Positions 3,847-62,036 of a stretch of DNA of 64,000 nucleotides are shown here, piece by piece. A program made the translations under genes and the position numbers. Within the stretch, counting starts at the first letter, position 1; every line of letters starts with the position of its first letter. Source of the DNA: Natronosalvus rutilus. GTDB lineage: Archaea > Halobacteriota > Halobacteria > Halobacteriales > Natrialbaceae. The stretch is from contig NZ_CP100357.1 of the NCBI RefSeq assembly GCF_024204665.1, positions 62,001 to 126,000 of the forward strand, given 5' to 3'. Below the pieces are notes generated by a model, which saw only the letters and a program-made list of their open reading frames with translations, ran no database searches and had not been told where the DNA came from.

Positions 3847-4406
3847 CCGAACCGTTCGACACCGACATCGAGGCCCGCCTGGACGCCCTCGAGGCGGCCG
3901 AGGCGGACCGCCGCCGGGTCGGGCTCGCCCTGATTGACCGTGACGACGAGCACGGCTGGCACTGGGTGAACCGCCCCAGAGGCGTCGACACCTTCACCGA
4001 CCTCGAGGAGCCCCCGAGTGTCGTCGTCTCCCTGGCCGCGGCGTGGCAGTTCGAGATCGACGACGACACGCTCGAGGTCGTCGCGGCTCGGGCGATTGAG
4101 CCCGACGGCGACCCGGGGGCCCGCTGGACGATCGCGCCCGACGGCGAGATCGAACCCGGCGACTCGCTCCGCGACTGGAATCCGACCGCCGTCCGGCCCG
4201 TCGACGACGGCGGCGAACCCGCCGACCACCAGGCCGACCTCGACCCCGAAACGCTCGAAATTACGGGCGTCCGACTCATCGACGACGACGGCATCCCTGG
4301 CGAGCCGATCGACCACCCCGCCGTCGGGAGTGTCGTAGGCGGTGACCCCGCCGAGGACGAGGCCGACGTCGACACCCGCGAGCGGGCCGCTGACCTTGAA
4401 TCTTGA
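3843..4406 (+). CDS. acidic hypothetical protein with RLDALE motif
   Basis: A 187-residue, very acidic protein and last gene of the three-gene operon (ATGA overlap with the previous one). It starts with the same short coiled-coil motif (DIEARLDALEAAEAD). It then has a domain containing YxDxHGWHW-like residues (DDEHGWHWVNRPRG) and two similar stretches, 'ETLEITGVRLIDDDG' and 'DTLEVVAARAIEPDG', which look like an internal duplication. No enzymatic motif is visible. A virion or plasmid accessory protein is possible but not shown. Confidence 0.6.
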   Translation: MTEPFDTDIEARLDALEAAEADRRRVGLALIDRDDEHGWHWVNRPRGVDTFTDLEEPPSVVVSLAAAWQFEIDDDTLEVVAARAIEPDGDPGARWTIAPDGEIEPGDSLRDWNPTAVRPVDDGGEPADHQADLDPETLEITGVRLIDDDGIPGEPIDHPAVGSVVGGDPAEDEADVDTRERAADLES

Positions 4407-4427
4407 AGAAGGATGTCTGCAGCGACG

Positions 4428-5186
4428 TTAGCGGCCGCTATCGAAGATGGCCGCCACAATGACCGCGATGATCAACAACGCAATCACGGCTGCGGCCAAC
4501 GGCGAGAATGTCGAGGTAGACGCCAACCTGTCCTGAATGTCGACTGCAGCCGCGGCCAGCGGCCCCGCTATCAGGACCAACACGAAGCCACCGAGAATCA
4601 GCCGCGGCGTTACTTGGCCGCGCGACCTCCCGGTCGGCTCGGCGGGTCTGGGCTTCGTAACCCGGCTGATTGCCAGCCGCTCGATAACTCGCAACCCGAG
4701 CACGGCCAGACCAGCCGCGCCGGTGAACAAACCGCCGGTCACGGTAAAGGACCATCCAGCAGCCATCATCATCGTAGGCGATATCCCGGACACCGGGCTG
4801 ATGATGAACGCCTCGGTCACACCCCAGTATAGAAGACTGAGTCCAGTTACCGCTGCGAGCAGTCCAATCGTTATAACCAACCGTGCCTTTTCGTCAATCC
4901 ACACCAGAATGTGTATAAGGCGGTCGATGTTCGGCGGCACTGGTTTCCGCCGCTCATCCCGGTCGAGTGTCCACACCCATGACCCACCGATTTTCTTCCC
5001 CTCGACCCGGTCTTCCTCCGCCAACGTCTGCAACCGCTGTTTCACGCGTTCCGTGCCTAAATCGACGACCTCGGCCACATTGGCATTCCCGAGCATCTCG
5101 TCATCGCTCCGGCGGAAGACATTGAGGATCTCCTCATCGTGGACATCGTTGTCCGAATCCGTCGCGACCAACTTCCTCCACTTCAT
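4428..5186 (-). CDS. membrane protein with N-terminal winged helix
   Basis: A 252-residue protein. The ATG at 5184-5186 (MKWRKLVATDSDND) overlaps the TGA of the 67-residue gene by four bases and sets the start. Residues 15-75 form a winged-helix domain (EEILNVFRRSDDEMLG..AEVVDLGTERVKQRLQTL). At least four hydrophobic segments follow (near residues 105-125, 135-175, 200-220 and 230-248). A cytoplasmic DNA-binding head on a membrane anchor is the likely topology. Similar wHTH-TM proteins occur in haloarchaeal proviruses; I infer a role tied to this mobile block. It converges on the 3843-4406 gene. Confidence 0.7.
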   Translation of the reverse strand: MKWRKLVATDSDNDVHDEEILNVFRRSDDEMLGNANVAEVVDLGTERVKQRLQTLAEEDRVEGKKIGGSWVWTLDRDERRKPVPPNIDRLIHILVWIDEKARLVITIGLLAAVTGLSLLYWGVTEAFIISPVSGISPTMMMAAGWSFTVTGGLFTGAAGLAVLGLRVIERLAISRVTKPRPAEPTGRSRGQVTPRLILGGFVLVLIAGPLAAAAVDIQDRLASTSTFSPLAAAVIALLIIAVIVAAIFDSGR

Positions 5187-5386
5187 CGGCTCCCCCCGAT
5201 GAGTTCGGTGATTGCGGCGATTACCAATGCTATGAATACGACGACACCGACGACGATGCAGACGATGCCCCACGTGGACAGGTCAATGGGCCCGGCCTGT
5301 CCAAGTGCGCTCGTGAATAAGAGTAGGATGATGCCGCCCGCGATGAGGCCGACCGCACCCTCAAGTGCGTCGACAAACTCGCTCAT
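5183..5386 (-). CDS. small two-TM membrane protein
   Basis: A 67-residue protein with two hydrophobic helices (VGLIAGGIILLLFTSAL and WGIVCIVVGVVVFIALVIAA). It sits between a 22-codon open frame upstream and the winged-helix membrane protein downstream, overlapping each by four bases (ATGA), so the three are co-translated. The family is not recognised. Its size and position suggest a partner of the downstream membrane protein. Confidence 0.65.
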   Translation of the reverse strand: MSEFVDALEGAVGLIAGGIILLLFTSALGQAGPIDLSTWGIVCIVVGVVVFIALVIAAITELIGGSR

Positions 5387-5451
5387 CGGATACCCCCCTC
5401 GGCTTCCTGCTGTCGGTAAACGATCCCATATTTCGTTATTGGCCGTTGCAT
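5383..5451 (-). CDS. possible 22-residue leader or micro-protein
   Basis: An open frame of 22 codons (MQRPITKYGIVYRQQEAEGG...) starts at the ATG at 5449-5451. It ends in a TGA that overlaps the ATG of the two-TM gene in the same ATGA fashion as every other junction in this operon. The repeated overlap geometry is the only evidence that it is translated. It could be a real micro-protein or a leader that feeds ribosomes to the next gene. Confidence 0.4.
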   Translation of the reverse strand: MQRPITKYGIVYRQQEAEGGIR

Positions 5452-5915
5452 CGTACCAATCGCTTACAGGTCCGGGATAAAAGAGGTATGAGAACGTTCA
5501 AATCCAGGTTTTGAGGATTTCTGTAGGATTGGCGTGACACCACCCCGGTGTTGTGCCGGGCGAAATCCCCGGTTGGGTTGGCCCAAATCGGCTGACTGCG
5601 TAGGGATAACGGTCTTACCCCGACTCACGCACCCAGGGCCCGAATCGCTTGATTTCACGCTCGAGCCGGCCCTGGACGTCGGCTTTCGATGCGTGACCCC
5701 TGCGGTCCGATCCTGGAGAACGGGGGTCCACCGCCGCTCGACCCCGGTTTTTAGACGTCCGTCACCCCCGACCGATCGAAAAAGTGGACGGCTCACTCGG
5801 CGTCGCTCCCGCGTCCTCGAGGGCGTCCTGGGCACCGTGTGGGGCCGCCGGGTCGTTCGGGGCGGATCGGTCGGGAGTCGGGTGCTGGTCGCCCCCAGCG
5901 GCCTCCTGGAGAGGG
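5452..5915. other. gap without a supportable gene
   Basis: Open frames exist on both strands, but all are arginine/serine-rich and lack acidic bias. The left part holds G+C-rich stretches around GCCGGGCGAAATCCCCGG (near 5555), which has short dyad character. I see nothing else that can be supported. Confidence 0.4.
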
Positions 5916-6374
5916 TTAGAGGACCGTCCCCAGTCGTTCGGTCGCTGCTTTCGAGAGCATGACGTTCTTCTCCGAAATCGACACTGGGCCGCCGGCCACG
6001 TCCTCGATCAACGCCGTCAGGCTCGCGAGGTAGTCGTCGGATCGCTCCTCGCGGAATTTCAGGATCGACCCGTGTTCGTGCGCGCGATTCTCGAGATAGC
6101 AGACCACGAACAGCCGGCGAACGTCGTCCGGGGCGTCATCGAGGTACCCCGGGAGCTCGAGGTCCTGGTCGGCCTTCGGTCCCACGGGGGCACCGAGCGT
6201 GGTGAGCACGCGCCCGAGGACGGTGCCGTGTTCGGTCGGGCGGACCTCGTCGGCGCGGCCAGCGCGCTCGTCGACGACCTGGTAGTCGACGTCGGCGAGT
6301 TCGAGCGCGTCGAATTTCGAGTCGCCGTACTCGAGATTGAGCCAGCCCTTCGTGCGGGCGGCGGTCCGAGCGTT
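5916..6374 (-). CDS. acidic hypothetical protein, 5' end uncertain
   Basis: About 150 residues with clear haloarchaeal composition, from NARTAARTKGWLNLEYGDSK to the C-terminus ...SKAATERLGTVL. The frame stays open further upstream, but that part is arginine-rich non-coding sequence with no ATG or GTG at a sensible place. Either an unusual start is used or the 5' end was lost when the divergent 62-residue gene region was joined. The sequence is consistent with a virus/plasmid gene (helical, with PGYLDDAPDDVRRLFVVCYLEN). No family is recognised. Confidence 0.5.
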   Translation of the reverse strand, partial: NARTAARTKGWLNLEYGDSKFDALELADVDYQVVDERAGRADEVRPTEHGTVLGRVLTTLGAPVGPKADQDLELPGYLDDAPDDVRRLFVVCYLENRAHEHGSILKFREERSDDYLASLTALIEDVAGGPVSISEKNVMLSKAATERLGTVL

Positions 6375-6377
6375 TAT
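6372..6377 (+). promoter_or_regulatory. TTTATA element between divergent genes
   Basis: TTTATA on the plus strand (TATAAA on the minus strand) lies in the narrow space between the start region of the leftward gene and the ATG at 6383. Only one side can use it as a classical archaeal TATA box about 25 nt from the start, and it is too close to 6383. This supports the idea that the leftward gene is not correctly bounded. Confidence 0.3.
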
Positions 6378-6382
6378 ACCGG

Positions 6383-6571
6383 ATGGCGCGGCCAGACCAG
6401 TCGATGCGACACCCCCAAGACGACCTCCTCGTCGTCGAGGCCCTCGTCGAGTACGCTCACGACCACGCGGATGCCGAGCCTGGACGGGCCGACCGGGCCT
6501 GGACGCTCGCCGACGACCTGGCCGCCAGCCACGGCCTCGGCCTCGAGGATGCCGTCCGCCAGATCGAGTAA
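6383..6571 (+). CDS. small acidic hypothetical protein
   Basis: A 62-residue acidic, helix-rich protein (MARPDQSMRHPQDDLL ... LGLEDAVRQIE). ATG at 6383; an internal ATG at 6404 (MRHPQDD) is an alternative start that would leave more room for a promoter. It is followed 90 bp later by the HicB relic. The composition matches a real haloarchaeal gene. Its function is unknown. Confidence 0.5.
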   Translation: MARPDQSMRHPQDDLLVVEALVEYAHDHADAEPGRADRAWTLADDLAASHGLGLEDAVRQIE

Positions 6572-6661
6572 CGCCGCAAACCGCCCCAGCTGCCTCCACG
6601 CGCTCGAGGTCGGGCTCCCCCGCGTCGCAGAAGCTTTCCGTTGACCACAGTCATCACAGGT

Positions 6662-6873
6662 ATGGGGACGCGATCACGGCGGGAGTCAGCCGACGAGACG
6701 GTCACGCTCACCCACGAGGGCGACTGGTACATCGCGACTGACGAGACGACCGGGATGTCAGCCAGGGCGAGACGAAAGCGGAGGCCCTCGAGAACCTGGC
6801 CGAGGCGCTCGAGCTTCACGGGCGTCCAGTGCTGGAAGACGCTAAGGATCTGGAGCCGTCTTCGGCGCCGTGA
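6662..6873 (+). pseudogene. hicB: frameshifted HicB-like antitoxin relic
   Basis: The first frame from the ATG at 6662 reads ...DETVTLTHEGDWYIATDETTGMS, the N-terminal strand pattern of a haloarchaeal HicB. After about 6760 the family continues only in another frame (QGETKAEALENLAEALELHG ... KDLEPSSAP, stop at 6871-6873). The intact relative at 14123-14392 reads WWVAKDVDTGVTTQGESREEAL across this point, so a base has been lost or gained near 6758-6762. No HicA gene follows; the next sequence is the left end of cassette B, only 22 bp away. Confidence 0.75.
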
Positions 6874-6895
6874 GTCGACTGATTTTACTTTTTCT

Positions 6896-8147
6896 GGCTC
6901 TGTTGAAATCCTCAGACGTTGATAGGAATCGGGTGCTGAATACAGAGGATGAGTGCAGCACGACAACATCGGTTATTTCGCATTGACACCGGTGAATCAT
7001 CCGATCACACACGTGCTTACTGATTGTGTCACCCAATTAGATTTGGCTTATAGGTTATGATCAGTGATCAACACCATTTCGAGAGACTGATTGGAGTTGA
7101 CGGCCTTCGAGAGGGATTCTTCGATTCTTCCGCGTAACGAGCTACGGGTTATCCATCGTAGCCCATTCCAACCATCCCTCAACGTATTCAATTTTCGCGG
7201 GATCGCACCGTGGATAGGGGAAGTAGACTGTTTGAGTGTCTCCGGAAGCAACATCGATCCCCAACTCTGTGCTTTGGCCAGCGTAGGCCACCGTCGTCTC
7301 GTCGAGATAGGCTTTTAGGTGTGGATACAGCGTAACGTCCTTCGTGTGGTTGTTATCGACTCTTCCAACGTATCCATACACTGGAGCGTCATCGTACGTT
7401 CCAATCTGGCCCCAGTCTCCATCGAGAGTCACGTACTCCTCGGAGGCGGGCCCGATATCCTCGACCCCACCACCGTCAGTAGAGAGCGTATACCCCTCTA
7501 TCGCGTCAGGATTGCCTTCAGAAGCCATCACCGTAAACAAATACGTCTCGTCCTCAGCAACGCCGAACCCCGTATCCTTTGCATGCGATTCATCGGAAAA
7601 TTCTGCTCGAACCTCTGGAATATTCCCACCTTCCCACGGCCCAATTCGACCCCGAACACCGTATCGACCGCTTTCGGCGTCTCTGAAAAATTCGTGGTCG
7701 GTAACGAGCTCTGCGTACGATCCCTCGACATCTGATTCGAGGGATTCACCGTCGGCACAGATCGGGGTGAAATCGGTGTCGAACGTCTCCGTGGCAACCG
7801 TCTCGACGTCTCGGTCATCCTCAGGGGTCAAATCAGATCCATCATCCGGTGTTGAACCACGTGAGAGACACCCCGCTACACCAGCAGTTGGCACCGTGAT
7901 TACTCCAAGTAGATACCGTCGTCGTTTCATTTGTTGAGTTATTGAGACCCGCTCGGAAATAGTTATTTGGGTAACTGAATGGGGGTTGGAGTCCTCCTGT
8001 ACGAGGTGTATTAGTCTTGGCTGATCGGGGCGTACCCCGCCTGTACTGAACGATTATCAACTCTCGTAGATTCTCTCATCTCGTGCCACATTCGCGCTCT
8101 GTATTCAGCACGCAGTCTTATCAGGGCTGAAGGATCTCAACAAAACC
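6896..8147. mobile_element. cassette B: lipoprotein gene bracketed by IS6-like inverted ends
   Basis: The left end starts GGCTCTGTTGAAATCC at 6896. The right end on the minus strand starts GGTTTTGTTGAGATCC at 8147. Each is followed by a TGATA segment and the dyad core (6933-6961 and 8083-8111). The layout is the same as cassette A and the right ends of A and B are almost identical (2613-2660 and 8083-8130). The single gene inside is another signal-peptide lipoprotein on the minus strand. There is no transposase and no obvious target duplication. Confidence 0.6.
7142..7930 (-). CDS. secreted lipoprotein, cargo of cassette B
   Basis: A 262-residue exported protein with an N-terminal MKRRRYLLGVITV signal and a lipobox (VAGC at residues 18-21), followed by an acidic Thr/Asp/Glu-rich linker to about residue 55. 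The C-terminal half (VYGYVGRVDNNHTKDVTLYP ... DVASGDTQTVYFPY) resembles an FxLYD-type immunoglobulin-like domain common in haloarchaeal surface lipoproteins. No catalytic motif is seen. Like the gene of cassette A it is alone between inverted ends, so the two cassettes carry the same functional class: anchored surface proteins. Confidence 0.75.
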   Translation of the reverse strand: MKRRRYLLGVITVPTAGVAGCLSRGSTPDDGSDLTPEDDRDVETVATETFDTDFTPICADGESLESDVEGSYAELVTDHEFFRDAESGRYGVRGRIGPWEGGNIPEVRAEFSDESHAKDTGFGVAEDETYLFTVMASEGNPDAIEGYTLSTDGGGVEDIGPASEEYVTLDGDWGQIGTYDDAPVYGYVGRVDNNHTKDVTLYPHLKAYLDETTVAYAGQSTELGIDVASGDTQTVYFPYPRCDPAKIEYVEGWLEWATMDNP

Positions 8148-8265
8148 GAAAGACAGAGATCTGCCTCCATCGAACGACTGCACTGAGTACGATGGGTAGC
8201 CGTCGCATCTCGACACTCAGATCGGTCGAACGCAGGGACGTACTGTGGCCTAGGATTCGCTGGCG

Positions 8266-8469
8266 TCATTGGTCGAGCACGTCGACGTCGGGCTTCGCCC
8301 CGGCTGGACCTGCGACTGCTTTTGCCCGCTCGAGTTCGCGGCGTTCTCGCTGGGCCTGTCGTTCGAGGGCAGCTGCCCGCCGACGACGTACGGAGAATCG
8401 ATCGTCGTCGTCGACGTCGTCGTCTTCGATCGTGAAGCGCTTGCCTCGGTGATCGATCTGCTCGAGCAT
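8266..8469 (-). CDS. small charged hypothetical protein
   Basis: A 67-residue protein with an acidic patch (EDDDVDDDDRFSV) followed by a long arginine/glutamate helix (RRRRAAALERQAQRERREL). Its ATG overlaps the stop of the upstream zinc-finger gene by one base (TGATG), so the two form a unit. The role is unknown; the mixed-charge helix could contact nucleic acid or a protein partner. Confidence 0.55.
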   Translation of the reverse strand: MLEQIDHRGKRFTIEDDDVDDDDRFSVRRRRAAALERQAQRERRELERAKAVAGPAGAKPDVDVLDQ

Positions 8470-8624
8470 CAGTACACGTCCTCTCGAACTGCGTCTCGAG
8501 CGTCTGCCTGCAGGTGCTCGTAGCGGACTTCACAGCTGGCCGAACAGAACCGGCCAGCGTATCCTGCCCGATCTCGGGTGCGTCTCGTACAGGTCGGTAC
8601 TCGACACTCGGTACACCTGGTCAT
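8469..8624 (-). CDS. small zinc-finger protein
   Basis: A 51-residue protein with CTEC ... C ... CSASC (MTRCTECRVPTCTRRTR...GRFCSASCEVRYEHL), the pattern of a single treble-clef or zinc-ribbon site. The ATG at 8622-8624 is preferred over an upstream ATG that adds a serine-rich extension. It is coupled to the downstream charged protein by TGATG. These tiny zinc proteins recur across haloarchaeal plasmids; the function is not established. Confidence 0.6.
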   Translation of the reverse strand: MTRCTECRVPTCTRRTRDRAGYAGRFCSASCEVRYEHLQADARDAVREDVY

Positions 8625-8846
8625 CTGGCGATCCTCGCTTGAGGACCGGGTCGTTGCAGCGTCGGGCGACGCTGATGCTACGTTGCTTGTTCGCATGGAT
8701 GTCTGCGGGCGGCTTCAGTCGAGCCCCCGCACCCCTCCGGGGGGCGACAAACCATCTCGAGCGGACGACCTGGTCACCTCTCAGTCATCGATTGAACGTT
8801 CCATTAAATCGCACACTCTTTAACAACCCCTTTCACGTAGAAAGAA

Positions 8847-8866
8847 TTATAAGGAATAAATAATAC
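8847..8866 (+). promoter_or_regulatory. AT-rich promoter of the beta-CASP nuclease operon
   Basis: TTATAAGGAATAAATAATAC lies 19-38 bp upstream of the ATG at 8885 in an otherwise strongly AT-rich stretch that begins sharply at about 8820. It contains plausible archaeal TATA boxes. If AATAAATAAT is used, the transcript would start at or next to the ATG (leaderless), as is common in haloarchaea. Confidence 0.45.
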
Positions 8867-8884
8867 AAATTATTTACGCTAAAT

Positions 8885-9769
8885 ATGGGAATACAAGAGA
8901 CAAGCGGCGATACAGAACGTACTGCTACTGCGATCCTTCGAGTCCTTGACCCCATCGAAATCATCGACTCACTTCCTCCAACTGTCTTCCCGGTTAGCGC
9001 GAAAATTCAGCTTGATCGTACCAGTCGTGAAGATCATGCCTATCAAGAGTATCGGCCACCAGACTACCCTGTTGAAGTCCGTGTCCCCGCCGAAGCGCCC
9101 TATATCCCGGAAACAACGGTCCATTTTAGCAATCCTGCAGAGCGGCCACCCAAAAATGCACAGCCTGTGAGCACTGCTGAATTCATCGACGGCCTTGAGG
9201 AGATAGCTGATCATCTCAAAGAAGAGACTGCTACTGATCCTCAGCGTCTGTATCTTACCGGGATTTGCGTTGTCGAAGTCCCCTCTCAATATCTTACCGT
9301 TGATGATGGTATACACGCTGTGAAACCTGCACTGTATGAGGAAAACGCCCAGATGACGATCGCGTATTTCCAAAAAGATAATTCGCTCAGTGCCCACAAT
9401 GTTCGTGAAGATCTTGATGAAGCACTTCCTGGCGAGACTCGAACACCGCTCGAACTCATCCGTCTCGATGAGGTTACTGCTAAACCGTCACGCCTTGGAA
9501 GAGGGACTACGCGTCGAGCAGGCCGTGCCCAATACTTTACTGAAAAAGAAGCTGAAAAAGCTGGCTCAATCGATGCAACACCTGCGATTTGGCAGGTAAA
9601 TCGTCTTCGTCGCCCCGGAGATGGTACCCGCCCTCTCGAAACCGTACTTGATGAATACTACCGGTTCTTACCTAGACTCGCTGAGACCGACCTCATTCGC
9701 GAACTCACTTTTGTTGGCCAGACCCGGACTGTCGAACGATTCTACGCCGAACAAGTCCTGAGCCGATGA
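8885..9769 (+). CDS. uncharacterised partner of beta-CASP nuclease
   Basis: A 294-residue protein, first gene of a two-gene operon; its stop overlaps the next ATG by four bases (ATGA). No family is recognised. Residues 30-75 look like beta strands (FPVSAKIQLDRTS ... PVEVRVPAEAPYIPE), and the middle contains YLTGICVVEVPSQYLTVDDG. A basic stretch near residue 200 (KPSRLGRGTTRRAGRA) could bind nucleic acid, and the C-terminus is helical. There is no TM segment or classical nuclease motif. Strict coupling to the nuclease gene suggests a subunit, specificity factor or sensor. The base composition is visibly more AT-rich than most neighbours, a sign of transfer. Confidence 0.75.
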   Translation: MGIQETSGDTERTATAILRVLDPIEIIDSLPPTVFPVSAKIQLDRTSREDHAYQEYRPPDYPVEVRVPAEAPYIPETTVHFSNPAERPPKNAQPVSTAEFIDGLEEIADHLKEETATDPQRLYLTGICVVEVPSQYLTVDDGIHAVKPALYEENAQMTIAYFQKDNSLSAHNVREDLDEALPGETRTPLELIRLDEVTAKPSRLGRGTTRRAGRAQYFTEKEAEKAGSIDATPAIWQVNRLRRPGDGTRPLETVLDEYYRFLPRLAETDLIRELTFVGQTRTVERFYAEQVLSR

Positions 9770-11835
9770 GTCATCAACGGACTCTCAAACAGTCAGAAGA
9801 GGGAAGTACAGCTACCAATGATGGTAGTCTTGTTGACCAACCTCTTGTGGTTACTCCATTGGGTGGTGCTAGAGAAGTCGGTCGATCTTGTTATCATGTC
9901 CAAACGCCGGAGTTGGATTTCCTTGTTGACTGTGGACTCAACCAGGGCTCCGGTGGTCAGTTCCCAAAACTGAGGGAGATTGACGAAGGACAGATTGACG
10001 CCGTATTTCTCACGCATGCCCATATCGATCACTCAGGAGGACTTCCAGTACTGGAGCATCGCGGCCTTCTCGCAGCTGATGCCCCTCTTATCACGACACG
10101 ACCGACAACGGCACTTTGCCATACTCTCCTTCATGATTCAATTAACATTCATGAGGAACAGGCCCGCCAACAGGGCCGAAAGCAACAATTCACCAGAGAT
10201 GACGTCCATGACGTTCTTGAGCGGTTTAAACCACATCGCTACGGAACCCATACCCTCTCTCGAGATCTCCCTCGAATCGATACCCTCGCTGATATCGAAT
10301 ACAAACTCGGTGGAGCAGGCCATCTGCTTGGTAGTGCTTGGCTCGCCATTGAATACGGTGGCCGTCGCGTTGTGTTCTCTGGTGATATTGGGGGTCGATC
10401 AGCTCATCTTCCTGATTGGGAGGCGCCTCCACCTGCAGATACGCTCTTCTTGGAGAGTACGTATGGGGACCGCCAGCAACACCGCTCGTTAAAATCAGCA
10501 CGGAACCAACTCTATCAAGAAACTTTGGACGCTGTGAAGAACGGTATTCCGGTTCTCATTCCAACCTTCGCTGTGGGGCGAGCCCAAGAAGTGATGCAGA
10601 TATTCCGCGAACGCTTTCCCCACGAGCCAGATGATGTCCAGGAGAAACTGGAGGTTATCTACGATGGGATGGCACGAGATGCCACTGCTGCCTATCATGC
10701 CTATTCTATTGGGGAATTCGTCAATGAAAAGATCAACAACTGGCGGATGAACGCTCAAGACAACGAGCCCTTCCTTCCGGACTGTGCATGGTACCCAGAA
10801 AATAATTCTGAGCGTGCCCCAATCCTCGATGGTGATAGCGCTCCGATTATCGTCGCACCTTCTGGAATGCTTACTGGGGGCACCTCACCGCTGTATCTTA
10901 CTGCACTTGCGGAAAAATATGATGAGGCACGTGTTTTCTTAATTGGTCACCAGGCGGAGGGGACACCAGGAAAAGTCCTGCAAGATGCTTCAGGTACCCA
11001 TGTAGAAGTCTCTCTCCCAGTAACACCATTCACTGATCTGGATCTTGAGGCCGACGACAGCGGCAATACCACAGTAACGATCCCAACGTCTTGGATCCAA
11101 ACCATCTCTGGTTTTAGCGGACACTGCGCTCGTCAAGTTCTGTCTGAGTTCGCTCAGGATGTCGACGCAAAGCATGTCGCACTTGTCCATGGACCAAGCG
11201 CTGCTCAGAAAGAGTGCAGAAACTACCTTGACAAGAGACTCAACGCAGATGTCGTAAGTCGGGCTATAATGGGAACGCCAATTCCCGTTTATGGTGCTAC
11301 TTCAGGGGAACTCACAAATGTTGATCTAAGTGATGGGGCTGCCACTGCTGCAACCGTCCGCCCTCAAAGTGAGGTTGATACAGACCATGTTACAGATACG
11401 CTTGTCGATGACGATGAATCGAGTAGCGAATTTGAAGCCGAGAACCTAGAGACAGAGAAGGAGGTAGAGCTGAGTGTTGGAGAGCGCATCGACGCATTGG
11501 AGGAAAAAATAAAGCAACTTGAAGCAGAACTGGTGGCTGCCCGTCACGAGGGTCGATGGACCGAGGGCGAACTTCGACGACTTATTCGCTCGGTACTAGA
11601 TAGCGGGTCTACGATCCCTGGGAGTGTGAGTGGCCCTCAATTTAAGGAACACACGCTTGATTCTCTCTTAGAAATCGACGGGGTAGGGACAAATATCCTC
11701 GAGAATCTCAACGAGAACGGGTATCAGTCAATAGCTGGTATCAAGAGTGCTTCTGTATCAGATCTAACTAACGTTGATGGAATAGGCAAGAAGATCGCCA
11801 CTAGGATGTTAGAACAAACGCATAGAGAGTCCTGA
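9766..11835 (+). CDS. beta-CASP metallo-beta-lactamase nuclease with C-terminal HhH
   Basis: A 689-residue protein. The N-terminal part is a metallo-beta-lactamase/beta-CASP domain of the CPSF/RNase J type: HAHIDHSGG (HxHxDH, about residue 86), GAGHLLGSA, FSGDIG, FLESTYGD, GHQAEGT and FSGHC, ending in ALVHG. It therefore probably cleaves RNA or DNA with two zinc ions. After about residue 540 comes an acidic linker, a coiled coil (ERIDALEEKIKQLEAELVAA) and two helix-hairpin-helix motifs (LEIDGVGTNILENL and LTNVDGIGKKIATRML). Archaeal housekeeping CPSF proteins carry N-terminal KH domains instead; this HhH-tailed form in an AT-rich two-gene operon looks like a mobile or defence-type nuclease. 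That is inference. Confidence 0.85.
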   Translation: MSHQRTLKQSEEGSTATNDGSLVDQPLVVTPLGGAREVGRSCYHVQTPELDFLVDCGLNQGSGGQFPKLREIDEGQIDAVFLTHAHIDHSGGLPVLEHRGLLAADAPLITTRPTTALCHTLLHDSINIHEEQARQQGRKQQFTRDDVHDVLERFKPHRYGTHTLSRDLPRIDTLADIEYKLGGAGHLLGSAWLAIEYGGRRVVFSGDIGGRSAHLPDWEAPPPADTLFLESTYGDRQQHRSLKSARNQLYQETLDAVKNGIPVLIPTFAVGRAQEVMQIFRERFPHEPDDVQEKLEVIYDGMARDATAAYHAYSIGEFVNEKINNWRMNAQDNEPFLPDCAWYPENNSERAPILDGDSAPIIVAPSGMLTGGTSPLYLTALAEKYDEARVFLIGHQAEGTPGKVLQDASGTHVEVSLPVTPFTDLDLEADDSGNTTVTIPTSWIQTISGFSGHCARQVLSEFAQDVDAKHVALVHGPSAAQKECRNYLDKRLNADVVSRAIMGTPIPVYGATSGELTNVDLSDGAATAATVRPQSEVDTDHVTDTLVDDDESSSEFEAENLETEKEVELSVGERIDALEEKIKQLEAELVAARHEGRWTEGELRRLIRSVLDSGSTIPGSVSGPQFKEHTLDSLLEIDGVGTNILENLNENGYQSIAGIKSASVSDLTNVDGIGKKIATRMLEQTHRES

Positions 11836-11850
11836 ACGATATTTTGGAAA

Positions 11851-12303
11851 CTACTCGAAAGACAGTTCAGCAAGCTTCTCTGGCAGACTTTGTAGACGAG
11901 TTTCGAAGACTGATAGCGGGTGGGCATCCAGAAACACAGCCTTTTCTCGATCCACTGAACCATCCGGGTAATCGATCTGAAAGTGGCAGTGGCCTAAGTC
12001 CGTGTGAGTATTGTCCTGATGCCATCCGCAGGAAAAGCCACGTTCTGGTTCGACCCACTGAATCCAGTAGTGGTTCCAGTTCTGACGGAATATAAATTCA
12101 ATTTCGACTCGAGCAGTTGTCGATCGATACGAGTGATCAAGAAACCGTTCAACGTCGACAACGGTGTGAATCTCGCGAGGACGGTTTCGAGACGGAAGGT
12201 ACTGGACGTCGGAAAACTCCGGTTGCGTACTCAGTCGCTGGTGAATTCGTTCATAAACACGTCGCTTGTCGTACGGGTTTCCACCGCTAGTGAACCGTCC
12301 CAT
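11851..12303 (-). CDS. TumE-like protein, putative toxin
   Basis: A 150-residue protein starting at MGRFTSGGNPYDKRR; the longer open frame adds an unlikely N-terminus overlapping the upstream gene. The C-terminal half has a TumE/DUF6516-like pattern of aromatic and histidine residues (FIFRQNWNHYWIQWVEPE, then GWHQDNTHTDLGHCHFQ) and a terminal helix. It lies one base after the stop of the winged-helix gene, the usual order antitoxin-then-toxin. Assignment to TumE is by motif only, with moderate certainty; a related RelE-fold nuclease is the alternative. Confidence 0.55.
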   Translation of the reverse strand: MGRFTSGGNPYDKRRVYERIHQRLSTQPEFSDVQYLPSRNRPREIHTVVDVERFLDHSYRSTTARVEIEFIFRQNWNHYWIQWVEPERGFSCGWHQDNTHTDLGHCHFQIDYPDGSVDREKAVFLDAHPLSVFETRLQSLPEKLAELSFE

Positions 12304-12304
12304 C

Positions 12305-12832
12305 TCAGTCGGCGTGTTGAGGTTGGCTGGGGTCTGAACCGTGGTCTTGTGCCGAAAGATCGTCGTATAGCCCAAGTGCGTTGGTGAGTAGCTGGCGATG
12401 GTGCTCGTTTTCCTCCCAGTAAGAGATCACCTTTCGTCGGTCCCGGACCTCTTCTGAAGGGAACTCTTCCCCAAGCGATGTCTCAAGATCTTGCAGTGAA
12501 TCAACGTCGTATTCGTGCTTCCACTCTGCAATTTCCGAGGCGATTGCCTCCAGTTCGTCTCGAAGCTCGTCTTTCGTATTCTCGACGACAAGCTCTTGGA
12601 TATGATCGAGATACGCCCGCATTGGATCGATCTTGTAGCGTGTATTGCCGTCCATCTCGACGGTCGTAAGCTGGCCTGCATCAGTAAGATACTCGAGTTG
12701 GGATTTCGCTGTTTCCCAGGAACCAACCTCCGCTTGCTCTTTGATCCAGTTGACCGACCTCGGCTCACGGAGTGTGAGGGCAACGGCTTCGATCCGATCT
12801 CGAGCAGTCATCGTTTCGGTCCAGTCATCCAT
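12305..12832 (-). CDS. winged-helix regulator, putative antitoxin
   Basis: A 175-residue protein. Residues 10-70 form a winged helix (RDRIEAVALTLREPRSVNWI..AEVGSWETAKSQLEYLTDAGQL), followed by a long coiled region (ELVVENTKDELRDELEAIASEI) and a C-terminal acidic tail. It resembles the haloarchaeal DUF7342 group. It directly precedes the TumE-like gene (one base gap), which suggests an antitoxin that also represses the operon. The start ATG at 12830-12832 is clear; the region upstream is A+T-rich and probably holds the promoter. Confidence 0.65.
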   Translation of the reverse strand: MDDWTETMTARDRIEAVALTLREPRSVNWIKEQAEVGSWETAKSQLEYLTDAGQLTTVEMDGNTRYKIDPMRAYLDHIQELVVENTKDELRDELEAIASEIAEWKHEYDVDSLQDLETSLGEEFPSEEVRDRRKVISYWEENEHHRQLLTNALGLYDDLSAQDHGSDPSQPQHAD

Positions 12833-12904
12833 GGTCTTGGAAGCAGATATGGGCTTTATACACTTATAGATTGAGATCGATTCGTGATATCCGAGAGTTA
12901 GAGG

Positions 12905-13465
12905 TTAGCGAATGAATGTCCCATCCGGAGCGGGTGTGATCCCAGTCTGAATCTCGAGGTCGACGCGTCTGAGGTGTTTACAGCCACCGGCAGGCTGGCG
13001 TTGTTCACAGTCCGGGCAGGTACACGTCTCCGCCTCGACGTCGACCGTGTAGGTGTTCCCACTCTCGCTGACGACCTCGTAGGTTGCGCCCTTACTGGCG
13101 AAGCGAACGTCCATCTCCTCGCTCAATGCCCGGCGGGTTCGTGGTTCGTCGATCGAGTACCCACCTGCCTCGAGTGGCGTCGGTGGCTGTGGATCCGCAC
13201 AGGGGCTGGTGAATTCGTTGCGACGGTTGCGTTCTTGCCCGCATGTTCTGCACCGCCAGTAGCGTGTGCGGTATTCGGAGCCCTCTGTGAGGTCGATCTC
13301 GTACGGTGATGGCTCACTTCCGGGAAGCCACTCGTCGATGGCAATGAGTTCGTGTCCGTTGAGTCGGGCAACGTCACCTGGATAACTGCGATCTCGATCG
13401 CTCGTGTTTGTCTGGGATTGGTTGTCTCGATGCGATTCGCTCTGGAGTGGCTGATCGGTGCTCAT
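12905..13465 (-). CDS. SWIM zinc-finger protein
   Basis: A 186-residue protein. The C-terminal third carries a SWIM pattern CxC...CxH (TCTCPDCEQRQPAGGCKH), usually a DNA- or protein-binding zinc site. A second CxxC...C group lies near residues 72-90 (CRTCGQERNRRNEFTSPC). The N-terminal 35 residues are low-complexity Ser/Asp/Gln. Haloarchaeal plasmids often encode such SWIM proteins beside replication or recombination genes, but no such partner is seen here. Confidence 0.75.
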   Translation of the reverse strand: MSTDQPLQSESHRDNQSQTNTSDRDRSYPGDVARLNGHELIAIDEWLPGSEPSPYEIDLTEGSEYRTRYWRCRTCGQERNRRNEFTSPCADPQPPTPLEAGGYSIDEPRTRRALSEEMDVRFASKGATYEVVSESGNTYTVDVEAETCTCPDCEQRQPAGGCKHLRRVDLEIQTGITPAPDGTFIR

Positions 13466-13693
13466 CAGTGATCTCGAGGCACACTGAGTTGCGCCTCACG
13501 CCTGTTGGCGCACAAAAAGTGACTTGAAACGTCTGCTCTCGAGCCCCAGCTTCGAAGAAAGTAGGGTCTTTCTGAGCGAGCTATGGGATTACCCCCGGAT
13601 TCGATTACTGTAGAACGCGTGGGGTAACTACATGCCTATCTTGGGCCACTGCCGACAGCGAAACGTGCCCTCGTACTTCGAGTATCCACGTCC

Positions 13694-13703
13694 GGGTATA
13701 CTT
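13694..13703 (+). promoter_or_regulatory. TATA box of the 13729 gene
   Basis: GGGTATACTT is centred about 30 bp before the ATG at 13729, the spacing of a haloarchaeal TATA box with a leaderless transcript. This favours the start at 13729 (or the adjacent ATG at 13732) over the longer open frame. Confidence 0.45.
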
Positions 13704-13728
13704 GTACAGAGGGGTAGTATCGACTGCT

Positions 13729-14037
13729 ATGATGGGCGAGGATGAGCCGGTGGAACACTGTACACTGGCCGAGTCAGAGAATCTCTTTGAAGCGCTTGCG
13801 GCCGCTGAGATCGAACATCTCGACGTCGACGAACATCGAACGATCGTGATTTACCACCAAGCGATTCTCATGGTCATCGTCACAGAGGGGCAAGCAACAG
13901 CAGCACAGGCCTTCGACGTCGAATTCTGGAAGGGACCGCCGAACGCGTCCTCTCCTGACCCTGGCGAGTTCCTGACTACGTTCCTCGAAGAGCTGATTGC
14001 GACCACCGAAGTCTCCCGGTCAGTTACCCACGACTGA
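13729..14037 (+). CDS. acidic hypothetical protein
   Basis: A 102-residue acidic protein (MMGEDEPVEHCTLAESENLF...). Predicted alternating helix and strands (AAAEIEHLDVDEHRTIVIYHQ, AILMVIVTEGQA) give it the look of a small alpha/beta domain. It stands alone with its own promoter upstream of the HicBA pair. No family is recognised. Confidence 0.55.
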   Translation: MMGEDEPVEHCTLAESENLFEALAAAEIEHLDVDEHRTIVIYHQAILMVIVTEGQATAAQAFDVEFWKGPPNASSPDPGEFLTTFLEELIATTEVSRSVTHD

Positions 14038-14090
14038 AGTAGTGATTTGATGATACCTCTGCATTCGCAGCGTGGGCAGTATGCCGAATA

Positions 14091-14096
14091 CTTATA
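14091..14096 (+). promoter_or_regulatory. TATA-like box of hicBA
   Basis: CTTATA lies 27-32 bp before the ATG at 14123. With the usual 25-27 bp spacing a leaderless transcript would begin at the ATG, which supports this start. Confidence 0.4.
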
Positions 14097-14122
14097 CGGC
14101 CCATCCCGTAGATATGTACACG

Positions 14123-14392
14123 ATGGCCAGTTCGACCCGAACCGGCGATGCCAACGACGGCGAGATTCGCCTCTGGCAGGAGGACGACTGGTGGGTTGCG
14201 AAAGACGTGGATACCGGTGTGACGACTCAGGGAGAGTCCAGAGAAGAAGCGCTGGACAACCTCGACGACGCTGTCGCAGTCTACACCGGCGAACGTGGCC
14301 GTGAACCGACGGACGAGGAACTTCGTGCGCTAGGAATCAACCCCGCGAACAATACTACGGGCGACCAGGAGCCGCCGGACGTGCTCGACTAA
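14123..14392 (+). CDS. hicB: HicB-family antitoxin
   Basis: An 89-residue protein with the HicB beta-strand core (EIRLWQEDDWWVAKDVDTG, then SREEALDNLDDAVAVYTGER), an RNase H-like partial fold that blocks the HicA active site. The start at 14123 (MASSTRTG) matches the TATA spacing; in-frame ATGs at 14081 and 14114 are alternatives. The stop is four bases before the hicA ATG. The C-terminal tail (REPTDEELRALGINPANN) probably carries the DNA-binding or toxin-contacting part. This is the intact counterpart of the frameshifted relic at 6662-6873. Confidence 0.85.
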   Translation: MASSTRTGDANDGEIRLWQEDDWWVAKDVDTGVTTQGESREEALDNLDDAVAVYTGERGREPTDEELRALGINPANNTTGDQEPPDVLD

Positions 14393-14395
14393 TTG

Positions 14396-14647
14396 ATGGG
14401 ACGGCGAACGTTCTCCGGAATGGAGGTCGTGAAGGTGCTGGTCAACGTCGGTGGGTTCGAGTGGCGACGAACGACCGGCGACCACGCCCAACTGTACTAC
14501 GAACACCCGACGAACGAAGACGACCGCCGACAGGTGACCGTCCCACTGCATAACGAACTCCGTACAGGAACGCTCCGAAGCATCGCCGAAAGCGCCGGAG
14601 CACACGATTTTGATGCATTCTGCAACTGGATCGACGAAAACGCCTGA
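14396..14647 (+). CDS. hicA: HicA-family mRNA interferase toxin
   Basis: An 83-residue protein of the HicA double-stranded RNA-binding-like fold. The conserved glycine and catalytic histidine segment is FEWRRTTGDHAQLYYEHP, followed by the basic strand DDRRQVTVPLHNELRTGTLRSI. It directly follows hicB, so the pair is a complete type II toxin-antitoxin module. The ATG at 14396 is preceded in frame by a TTG at 14393; ATG is chosen. It is slightly longer than the typical 60-80 residue HicA, with a short C-terminal helix. Confidence 0.85.
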   Translation: MGRRTFSGMEVVKVLVNVGGFEWRRTTGDHAQLYYEHPTNEDDRRQVTVPLHNELRTGTLRSIAESAGAHDFDAFCNWIDENA

Positions 14648-14785
14648 TCGTCGACGAAGCGTCGATCCCTGCCCCTATTGTCGAACAGGAAAGCATGGTG
14701 TGGTCCGCCCTCTGCCTCATCATTATTCTCCTAGAGGAGGTATTCTTAAGCGAGTCGATACGAAAGATACAGGTACGAAAACGAG

Positions 14786-15049
14786 ATGAACGACAGCACC
14801 GATCCACGACCGCCACTGTCAGAGTGGATTCTTGACGCGTACGATGTCCTTTGCATGCACTGTCTCAGTTCTGACGATCGTGAAGATGTGCCGTCAATCC
14901 CTCGAGAACAAGCACTCGAGATCCTTCTGAGAACCGATGACCTGGCCTTTGAGCCTGAAGACGCGAACTATGCGCTCACCCGGCTGCTCGAGCGAGGCTA
15001 CTTCTACGAGGTCGACGATGAACTCCGTGTGACAGAGCCGGAAAGCTGA
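14786..15049 (+). CDS. small winged-helix-like protein
   Basis: An 87-residue acidic protein (MNDSTDPRPPLSEWILDAYD...). The pattern PREQALEILLRTDDLAFEPEDANYALTRLLERGYFYEVDDELRV reads as helices plus a two-strand wing, so a compact winged helix is likely. It is monocistronic, 138 bp after hicA. A regulator is plausible; the target is unknown. Confidence 0.6.
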   Translation: MNDSTDPRPPLSEWILDAYDVLCMHCLSSDDREDVPSIPREQALEILLRTDDLAFEPEDANYALTRLLERGYFYEVDDELRVTEPES

Positions 15050-15857
15050 CGTTTGGGTTTGAGTTTGAGACGTACTGTGGGACATTTCCTCTATTTAATA
15101 TCTATGTAGAGACTGATAGGTGACTCGAAGACCGCACCAGACAATGGGATCGTCGGTTGCTCGTTACCCCGGTAATACCGCCGGTCAACACTCAGGCTAC
15201 TCGGTGGGGAATCTCTAGTTCTTCTCCCTAATCCATACGTAGCCTGAAATACCAACTCACGCTGAACGGGATCCTCAATTACCACTATCCGTTCCTCATC
15301 TGTCTACGTATCTCCAACTAATAGCTCTCCACTTGCTTCCCTCCACCTCATCACCCGATTATGCCGTTCCCTGTATTATACTCATCTGATAGTTCTCTAA
15401 TTTCCTTCTGTGCTCTGCCCCTCCCTAAATCCCTCCTCACAACACCCTAAATTCACACCTCGTACTCTACCCTTTCTTTGGACGATTTTCGAGGTGCGAA
15501 TTTCGATTTAACGGATTCAGAATTGCATAGGATAGCTAAGGGCTGGTTTGAGGGCGCTATTTGTTATATGAAAGCGAGTCTTAGACCTCGAGTTGATATA
15601 TGCAACGCGTGACGGCCGTTACCAGCTAAATTCTGGCAAATCGGGAAAGTAGGCGAATACAGTTACTTATCCTATATGAAAGTGGGTTCCTCCGATAAAT
15701 GAAAAACGAGGGATCGGAACCGCTAAGACTGCCCAATTACTCACGAAGAAGCCCTCATTCGTATTTGCAAACCGCAGTGCTGAATGTTCTCGAAAGATCG
15801 GGAGATGAATACATACTCGAACTGCCAATAATGACCGTGTTTGCTCGTCTAGGTCCG
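15050..15857. other. long non-coding region at the 3' side of the transfer operon
   Basis: About 800 bp with no convincing gene. The stretch 15285-15480 is strongly pyrimidine-biased on the plus strand (purine-biased on the strand transcribed from the conjugation operon). Further on, two similar segments TATATGAAAG (near 15570 and 15670) are followed by CGAGT and TGGGT respectively. Around 15480-15530 is an AT-rich stretch (CGAATTTCGATTTAACGG). Such a region next to a transfer module is a place to look for an origin of transfer or replication, but I see no iterons. Confidence 0.45.
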
Positions 15858-17363
15858 CTACTGGGTCGGGTACTCTCCGTGGTCATCGATCTGTTCGTAC
15901 ATCTGGTCGGGGAAGGGAAGACTTCCATAGATCGAGTAGGGACACTGGTCACGCCCGATGCAGTACCGTTGCATATCATCATTCGTACAATTCATCGGGA
16001 GAGGGATTTCGCCGCCGATATCGTTGTCGAGTTCGTACCGAATCTGGTACTCAGTCACCTCGTCCTCGTACCAGGGCCACCGCGAGAACAGGTCTTTCAC
16101 GTCGCTGATGAATTCCGCCATACTCGCGTCCCGATACTGGGGGAGCCACCACGCCATCCGCACCAGATTGAACAGATCCTTCCGGACGGGTTTCTTCTCC
16201 TGGAGGCGCTCGTTCATCGCTGCCATACAGGGCAACTCGAACAGGTCTTCGAGCTTATTGATGTGGAGTGGTTGAGCACCGTCGCTGTAGTCGGTAAGCG
16301 TATACCGATTCAAGCGTGCGTTCTCGACGGTGACGCTCGCGTGATCGCGGTTCCGCGAGAGAACCGCACCGAGACTTCGCGCTGAGGAAATGGATTCACA
16401 GACCTGTCGCTCCCACGTTCGGTCCGGGTCGTACGCGTCAACCGCTTTGTAGAGGTCGCTTGCAGTTTGTGTCTCACCGAGTTCGGCAACGTTGTCGTCT
16501 GCAGCGGTCACTGCGTTGATGATCGTCAAGAGGTCACGTTTTTGTCGACTCCAGTTCTCCCACACGCGGTGGGTCTGTCCGGCCTGGAAGAAGCGGTCGA
16601 TGCGCTCACTGATTGCGGACTCGTTCGCAGTGAGCCAGCTTCGCTGTTCCGCTGTTAACGTCTCCTCTTGAACTGCGAGTAGACGTCCAAACGCGTCTTT
16701 GGCGTACTCGCGGTACTTCGCCATGAAATCCGAGACGGGAACATACAGATTGTTGTCCGCGACGTGGGCCTGAATCTCGCCCTGCTCCCCCTCGTCGCCA
16801 TCCGTACGGGCCAAGCACTTTCGTGAGGCGGCGACGAGCGGAATCTCGAGGTAGTATCCTTCGCCGAACTCGGGGTTGGTTGTGATATCTGTACAGACTC
16901 GACCCGGATGGACGCCGTCTTCGCCGGGTGCTTTCGCGTAGAGGGTTTCGGCGATCTCCTGGTGGAGCGACCAGTCCTCGTACTCGCGAACGAGCGATCC
17001 GATATTGTTGACGTAGAGTTCGCGAAGATCACCGAGAAGCGCGAGATGACGGGGCGGCGTATCCTCGAGTTTCGGATGGTCCATAATGCAGACCGCCCCG
17101 AGCGTCGTAAGAACAGCCAGCACTCCCGGATCGTCTACGTAGGGACGCTCGGCTGCCTCCTCTCGTGTGCTCGGCGTGAACGCACCGGTGGTGAATCGCT
17201 CGATGTCGACAAGCAGCTTCTCCGTCTGTTGCTCGCCATCGACCATCCACCGCTGATACCCACGCTCGAACAACTGCGTGAGCTGGGACTCGCCCTCGTC
17301 TCGTGGGAGAGCCGCGACTCGATACGCCGTGTATTCGTCGTCCACTGGTGTCTCTCGGCTCAT
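15858..17363 (-). CDS. plasmid-type primase large subunit (PriL-like, Fe-S)
   Basis: A 501-residue protein and last gene of the transfer operon; its ATG overlaps the stop of the small-subunit gene by four bases. Residues 375-490 match the C-terminal Fe-S domain of archaeal/eukaryotic primase large subunits: LPCMAAMNERL, a long helical stretch ending in YQIRYEL, then MNC..., RYCIG and QCPYSIYG. This supplies four cysteines in the expected order. The N-terminal 370 residues are helical and divergent. PriL assists RNA/DNA primer synthesis; the copy here would act with the adjacent catalytic subunit on the element's own DNA. It is much longer than chromosomal haloarchaeal PriL (about 350-400 residues). 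Confidence 0.75.
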   Translation of the reverse strand: MSRETPVDDEYTAYRVAALPRDEGESQLTQLFERGYQRWMVDGEQQTEKLLVDIERFTTGAFTPSTREEAAERPYVDDPGVLAVLTTLGAVCIMDHPKLEDTPPRHLALLGDLRELYVNNIGSLVREYEDWSLHQEIAETLYAKAPGEDGVHPGRVCTDITTNPEFGEGYYLEIPLVAASRKCLARTDGDEGEQGEIQAHVADNNLYVPVSDFMAKYREYAKDAFGRLLAVQEETLTAEQRSWLTANESAISERIDRFFQAGQTHRVWENWSRQKRDLLTIINAVTAADDNVAELGETQTASDLYKAVDAYDPDRTWERQVCESISSARSLGAVLSRNRDHASVTVENARLNRYTLTDYSDGAQPLHINKLEDLFELPCMAAMNERLQEKKPVRKDLFNLVRMAWWLPQYRDASMAEFISDVKDLFSRWPWYEDEVTEYQIRYELDNDIGGEIPLPMNCTNDDMQRYCIGRDQCPYSIYGSLPFPDQMYEQIDDHGEYPTQ

Positions 17364-18250
17364 AGTTGAAGGAAATCGGGCGTCGCCTCGGTTCGGAAAT
17401 CGAATCCCGGATCGTCGATAGGCTGGACGACACGCGAGATATCGGCATGTAGCGAGTACGGCAGCCGCATCACCCGGCGCCGGTCAGCCGTGACCACTGG
17501 ATCGATGGGGATCTCATATTCGTCGAGGAGCAGGTCGTTAATCACCTCCCGGCTTTGCTCGTCGTAGCGGTGCCCACGGTCCGTATCGAGCAAGTAGACG
17601 TGGCAGCCCTGGCCCGAGTAGACGACCATCGTTTCCTCAGCCGCGAAGTCGTCCTCGAAGATCTCCTGGGCTGTGAAGCCGTACTCGAGAGCTTGCTCGA
17701 TATCCTCAAACGCGTAGGGATAGCCCTTGGGTGGGCTGTCGAAGACGCCTGTAGTTCGAAGGTGTTCTGCCTCGACGTTGCCGGTTTCACCAGTTGTTTC
17801 ACTGGAAGCGCGCTGTGCTGCGATGTCTTTCGCGTCGATATCGACCGCGAGTACCCACGACCGCTCCCAGTGATCGAGTGCGTAATAGACGGCATCGGGG
17901 CGTGGCTCCGGTTGCTCTACAAGGTCAGGATCAACGAGCGCGTAGTCGTTGCCCTGCGCGGGATCGTAGCGGGCGGGGTACTGGATGAATTTGACGAGGT
18001 CCGCTCGTGAATCGAACTGCTGGCTGGTTCGATCACCGGACCTGCTGGTTTGCCAGGTATCGCGACGGATAAACGACCGATCAGGAGCGTTCTGCTTTTG
18101 GATCGGGTATGCCTCTCGGAAGGCGATAGCGTACTGCTTCGGGCCACTGGCTGTGAGGAATGATGGGAGTGAGTCGAGTTGGTCTGGAAACGTCTCTGTG
18201 TAGTAAGTGTGGAGCTCCTCACGGGTCGCTTCTCGCCACTCCCCAGTCAC
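17360..18250 (-). CDS. primase small-subunit-like AEP polymerase
   Basis: A 296-residue archaeo-eukaryotic primase-superfamily protein. The three motifs are visible in order: VLAVDIDAKD (metal-binding DxD, about residue 136), VYSGQGCHVYLLD (sxH, about 213) and a basic segment PVVTADRRRVMRLPYSLH (about 252), with a preceding EIPIDP acidic residue. It overlaps the coupling ATPase gene upstream and the PriL-like gene downstream by ATGA. It lacks the zinc-knuckle seen in chromosomal PriS, so it is a plasmid-type primase. Likely job: priming replication or complementary-strand synthesis after conjugation. Confidence 0.8.
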   Translation of the reverse strand: MTGEWREATREELHTYYTETFPDQLDSLPSFLTASGPKQYAIAFREAYPIQKQNAPDRSFIRRDTWQTSRSGDRTSQQFDSRADLVKFIQYPARYDPAQGNDYALVDPDLVEQPEPRPDAVYYALDHWERSWVLAVDIDAKDIAAQRASSETTGETGNVEAEHLRTTGVFDSPPKGYPYAFEDIEQALEYGFTAQEIFEDDFAAEETMVVYSGQGCHVYLLDTDRGHRYDEQSREVINDLLLDEYEIPIDPVVTADRRRVMRLPYSLHADISRVVQPIDDPGFDFRTEATPDFLQL

Positions 18251-61929: not shown

Positions 61930-62036
61930 CAGAACACCTCGTCTGTCCATCGGCCTCAGTCGTGGTCAGAGGCACGCCCATCTACAAGAATCGTGCGCGA
62001 GTGGTAAGGGTTGGCGTCTTTGATATCAAGACCGCT

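Follow-up and report, generated by a model that had tools for sequence, protein, structure and literature searches.

Several described beta-CASP nucleases resemble the enzyme considered here. The archaeal termination nuclease aCPSF1/FttA (TIGR03675) is a housekeeping protein with RNA-binding KH domains, and Cas14 of type VII CRISPR-Cas belongs to an accessory system in which the nuclease needs partner subunits to aim at RNA and the spacers mainly match transposon genes (PMC10910872). aCPSF2 and bacterial RNases of the TTHA0252 type have the same catalytic core, RNase J (TIGR00649) is a member of the same superfamily, and SNM1/Artemis represents its DNA-type enzymes. Across beta-CASP enzymes, motif C carries His in RNA-processing and Val in DNA-processing members (PMC3095777).

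The locus described here lies in a stretch of 64,000 nucleotides from Natronosalvus rutilus (the window; positions 62,001 to 126,000 of NZ_CP100357.1), which is part of a plasmid-sized contig of 126.7 kb (also given as 127 kb) in a 4.3-Mb haloarchaeal genome. The initial annotation had drawn attention to two genes that overlap by ATGA, and both open reading frames are present as described: an orphan partner protein is followed by a beta-CASP nuclease (Table 1). An identical overlap of -4 joins the partner and nuclease genes in loci L031, L033, L035, L036 and L037.

Table 1. Features of the partner-nuclease cassette, in positions of the window.
Feature	Positions	Strand	Residues and remarks	Basis
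AT-rich region upstream of the pair	8820..8884	+	TATA-like stretch at ~8845-8853; possible promoter	
Partner gene, orphan protein	8885..9769	+	294 aa; conserved motifs NPAER (83-87) and TAKPxR (198-203)	ORF
ATGA overlap	9766..9769	+	partner stop and nuclease start; suggests translational coupling	
Beta-CASP metallo-beta-lactamase nuclease	9766..11835	+	689 aa	ORF, domain matches
Motif 2, HAHIDH	10015..10032	+	84-89; metal site	alignment
Motif 4, FSGDIGG	10375..10395	+	204-210	alignment
Motif A, LESTYG	10450..10467	+	229-234	alignment
Motif B, SGFSGHCA	11107..11130	+	448-455	alignment
Motif C, LVHGP	11182..11196	+	473-477; His is the RNA type of the superfamily	
C-terminal signature AARHEGRWTEGELRRLIRS	11530..11601	+	589-612; clade-wide, after the coiled coil	
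HHH_5 domain	11662..11817	+	633-684; limited to this sub-branch	

The pair had also been described as an AT-rich island, and of this picture only the upstream edge stands: the GC content drops steeply at about 8820 but does not recover at 11835, staying at 48-53% to about 12750. Positions 8820-11835 have 50.3% GC as compared with 56.3 +/- 3.5% for windows of the same size on the plasmid (5.7th percentile), and the GC3 values of the pair (0.42 and 0.44) are the minimum among the plasmid's 59 larger genes (mean 0.65, SD 0.10). Other stretches of the plasmid equal the pair region in AT richness, and in relatives there is no consistent AT difference, in either direction, between the pair and its flanks. 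The composition is a hint of recent acquisition rather than the mark of a two-edged island. The upstream stretch (8700-8884) folds more stably than its shuffles (z -3.1), a value given no weight because the stretch crosses the GC boundary, and an Rfam search of 6000-16000 returned no match.

In a maximum-likelihood tree, 35 haloarchaeal nucleases form one clade (support 99/98, and 100/99 in a second tree) that is separate from all of the comparison proteins: aCPSF1, seven Cas14 proteins, aCPSF2 and one bacterial relative. This clade of archaeal nucleases, which is found mostly on mobile elements, is undescribed. The closest curated match of the window's nuclease is aCPSF1, at 269.8 bits and below the NCBIfam equivalog cut-off of 580.2, and the two have in common the beta-CASP core, all metal motifs and the His of motif C. 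They differ at both ends, as the C-terminus is of another kind and the match begins at model position 167 of 631, corresponding to residue 19 of the protein, so that there is no room for two N-terminal KH domains. Unlike aCPSF1/FttA, the plasmid nuclease is not universal and is mostly plasmid-borne. Nor is it the housekeeping copy, because the host chromosome retains two full aCPSF1 genes above the cut-off; a further beta-CASP gene is also found there. aCPSF2 and the TTHA0252-like RNases are ~30-35% identical to the nuclease, lie apart from it in the tree, and have neither such a partner nor the C-terminal signature, and it is not a member of the RNase J family, scoring 29.6 bits where 400 are required. 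When the pair was compared with PADLOC, no defence-system model was matched, the nuclease giving only LmuA at E 0.0097.

The nuclease consists of Lactamase_B, Beta-Casp and RMMBL domains with an HHH_5 domain at its C-terminus (Pfam), and its catalytic motifs are present, in agreement with the intact metal site proposed at the outset. Motifs 1-4, A, B and C are complete in practically all of the clade members aligned, with and without partner, the exception being L091, in which the motif 4 Asp is replaced by Asn and the end is degraded. The motif C residue is His in the window's nuclease and in the other aligned members, and we predict from it that the substrate is RNA. This residue weighs against an enzyme that processes DNA when the plasmid replicates, is repaired or conjugates, and whose HhH would bind DNA, as the DNA-type enzymes SNM1 and Artemis have Val at this position. 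A DNA-processing role would suit the HHH_5 tail and the VirB4 and XseAB genes that neighbour the cassette on two plasmids; however, there is no HhH in 12 of the 16 pair loci and both XseAB plasmids have one common backbone, and we consider such a role improbable.

The helix-hairpin-helix tail that had been reported for the nuclease is real but a local embellishment, carried among the 16 pair loci by the window, L016, L031 and L017 only. What is common to the clade, in members with and without a partner, is a coiled coil followed by the Arg/Glu-rich signature, in which R604 is invariant and R593 and R608 are nearly invariant across 16 diverse members. By alignment, the signature was not found in aCPSF1 or Cas14, and it is a possible docking motif.

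Among defence nucleases, Cas14 (NF045584) is closest to that of the window; of the curated families only aCPSF1 scores higher, Cas14 reaching 214 bits where 800 are required. Its profile aligned only to position 425 of 612, leaving the C-terminal (adaptor) domain unmatched. Both are beta-CASP nucleases with an RNA-type active site in an accessory system that includes a partner protein; however, the pair comes without Cas5 or Cas7 and without a CRISPR array, and its nuclease belongs to a separate clade. The resemblance might be taken to indicate a reduced type VII relative in which the partner is a divergent Cas5 or Cas7 carrying a guide. When the partner was compared with type VII Cas5 and Cas7 profiles built for this purpose, hhalign probabilities were 0.03 and 0.11%, respectively (a comparison of sequence profiles only), and there are no CRISPR-like repeats in 4000-18000; together with the low Cas14 score and the position of the clade, these results make a reduced type VII relative extremely doubtful.

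The 294-residue partner had been said to have no recognisable family, and this holds across Pfam, NCBIfam, PADLOC, PHROG and the PDB. There are no Pfam, PADLOC or NCBIfam matches even at E<=1, a PDB sequence search gave no reliable match, and 14 relatives scanned singly against Pfam, PHROGs and PADLOC yielded only weak, non-recurring ones. The NPAER block, E131, R174, K200, R203 and R249 are among the invariant residues. AlphaFold2, run twice on alignments of 14 rows, gave models of low confidence (mean pLDDT 63 and 58; pTM 0.63 and 0.55), in both of which a mixed alpha/beta core at residues ~11-147 recurs. With these models, Foldseek found no match at E<=0.001, and the best VIA-align Z of 3.2 was level with unrelated folds, the viral library also containing no reliable match. 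Because the models are weak, the lack of a fold match is not evidence of a new fold, and to suppose from them that the partner binds RNA would be guesswork. We also considered whether a low acidity of the partner might point to nucleic-acid binding, and rejected this because the value is not distinctive (24th percentile). No description of the family was found in the full-text literature, a coverage that largely leaves out subscription journals.

Samples of haloarchaeal genomes contained the partner in 9 of 292 and in 14 of 391 cases, and among 393 genomes sampled across the phylum it occurs once, in the window's own. When 84,980 prokaryote species were scanned with a pattern, 11 partner loci emerged, all of them haloarchaeal. 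The partner was found in seven plasmids; IMG/VR contains no relative of it and only distant beta-CASP proteins, and the beta-CASP relatives in phage records are only 20-31% identical. The nuclease clade is found in 25 of the 292 haloarchaeal genomes, exceeding the count for the partner. Wherever the contig continues, the nuclease follows the partner (L034 stops at the contig edge), and the partner and nuclease trees are congruent, with a mirror-tree r of 0.967 that was reached in none of 5000 permutations. Both genes have dN/dS values of 0.05-0.15 and are under purifying selection.

The pair is located mostly on plasmids, one of them, NZ_CP099998 (293,861 bases), in Natronosalvus halobius of the same genus; chromosome-sized contigs carry at least five solo nucleases and one pair. 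Near-identical pairs (dS ~0.1) are found on plasmids of Haloplanus (Haloferacaceae) and Halorientalis (Haloarculaceae), that is, in different families, indicating that partner and nuclease move as one unit. Damaged copies are also seen: the partner is broken in Natrinema (L022) and Halococcus morrhuae (L041/L095 and L076), the nuclease is broken in its tail in Halococcus thailandensis (L032), and L093 is a nuclease fragment. These copies are apparently decaying, having arisen by transposon insertion, frameshift or truncation, and the cassette is dispensable. The search for co-occurrence that had been suggested for this locus thus finds a pair that is co-inherited, horizontally mobile, mostly plasmid-borne and sporadic; the partner was not encountered without the nuclease in housekeeping loci, nor the two genes as a universal chromosomal pair.

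Residence on plasmids is also what would be expected if the nuclease were an FttA/aCPSF1-like processing or termination factor, trimming or terminating the plasmid's transcripts or replication-control RNAs while the partner steers it. The best curated match (270 bits), the RNA-type active site and the conservation of the mostly plasmid-borne cassette agree with this, and of 39 loci, 11 have Orc1/Cdc6 and 8 have ParA within ~7 kb. By a rough estimate, however, several such genes per plasmid would lead one to expect about this degree of proximity. The cassette is absent from most haloarchaeal genomes, at least five solos and one pair reside on chromosome-sized contigs, and the host already has its two aCPSF1 genes. 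We regard processing of the plasmid's own RNA as unlikely on balance, and as the main rival to the targeting of RNA from competing elements.

Of the 35 rows in the clade tree, 16 come with the partner; the 19 solo rows form two sub-branches nested among the pair rows. Because the partner and nuclease trees are congruent, the simplest history is probably that the partner is ancestral and was lost at least twice. No replacement partner is common to the solo loci. We note that on a Halococcus dombrowskii plasmid (L045:4949-5911) a gene with AbrB-like and HhH parts lies upstream of a solo nuclease, with an ATGA overlap, so that the HhH that is a fused tail in the window's nuclease is in this case in a separate gene. 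A solo nuclease is also found on a main contig in another class of the phylum (L146 in G309, 35% GC), nested in a haloarchaeal solo branch; it is a probable transfer out of Halobacteria, its exact placement being unsure on a long branch.

The solo nucleases bear on whether the pair is a toxin-antitoxin or addiction module, with the nuclease as RNase toxin and the partner as antitoxin. An overlapping two-gene operon on plasmids, with the antitoxin-like gene first and another toxin-antitoxin pair nearby, has the appearance of such a module, but nearly all of the 19 nucleases without partner keep the active site complete. This is difficult to square with an antitoxin (an unrecognised one elsewhere is conceivable) and suits a partner whose effect is to redirect or sharpen an otherwise usable nuclease. 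Partner and nuclease are, moreover, far above the usual size of such systems, and an addiction function seems to us quite improbable.

Of the proposal that the locus is an undescribed defence or mobile-element system, the mobile two-gene module acting on nucleic acid, with a non-housekeeping beta-CASP nuclease, has held up; defence has not gained in the same way, the PADLOC, type VII and toxin-antitoxin comparisons being negative or against it, and is no more than a plausible role. We tentatively favor, at rather less than even chances, the reading that the cassette is an accessory RNA-targeting module of haloarchaeal plasmids aimed at the transcripts of competing elements. Counting against this reading are the many genomes in which the nuclease persists on its own. 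The two genes form a mobile accessory cassette whose nuclease would cut RNA, as an endo- or exonuclease, and whose partner, translated in step, would most likely bind the nuclease. As the clade is without the KH RNA-binding domains of housekeeping aCPSF1, the partner would most likely pick or present the RNA target in their place. Cleavage of transcripts from incoming viruses, transposons or rival plasmids would then serve in conflict between elements and favor the plasmid on which the cassette resides. A more specific form, which we think doubtful, is a CRISPR-free two-protein immunity in which the orphan protein recognises foreign transcripts and guides the beta-CASP RNase to them, as a functional counterpart of type VII.

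In either case, a partner family with no recognised relative accompanies an undescribed nuclease clade. Targeting of foreign RNA by the pair would mean that the beta-CASP fold was recruited for immunity a second time, independently of CRISPR; processing of plasmid RNA would make the pair a rare case in which a plasmid carries a version of archaeal termination machinery. The role of the partner is directly testable because cultivable haloarchaea have the nuclease both with and without it.

A plain listing of the genes around 13 pair loci contains transposases, Orc1/Cdc6, ParA, helicases and restriction-modification genes. Type IIG restriction-modification genes are near the pair in L031 and L039, a BrxHII/DrmD-like helicase in L035 and a Mokosh-like helicase in L038. 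L020 and L021 are plasmids of different families that have one backbone, with VirB4-type transfer genes, and in which XseAB (exonuclease VII) adjoins the cassette. The window, L016 and L031 have in common a block that follows the pair, at 11851-13465 in the window, and encodes a 150-aa protein, DUF7342 and a SWIM-type zinc protein. The initial annotation had seen a TumE-like pair and HicBA in this region: for the former, which is only partly supported, 12305-12832 proved to be DUF7342 and 11851-12375 has no Pfam match, and for the latter HicA is confirmed at 14393-14647. In L031, 80 bp of the upstream flank recur downstream of the pair; we rejected a repeat, because the second copy falls within the 3' end of the gene that corresponds to 12905-13465, and the match is probably a gene remnant. 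Finally, the gene at 15858-17363 of the window strongly matches the NF038197 primase-associated protein (782 bits) and probably belongs to the replication module of the plasmid.
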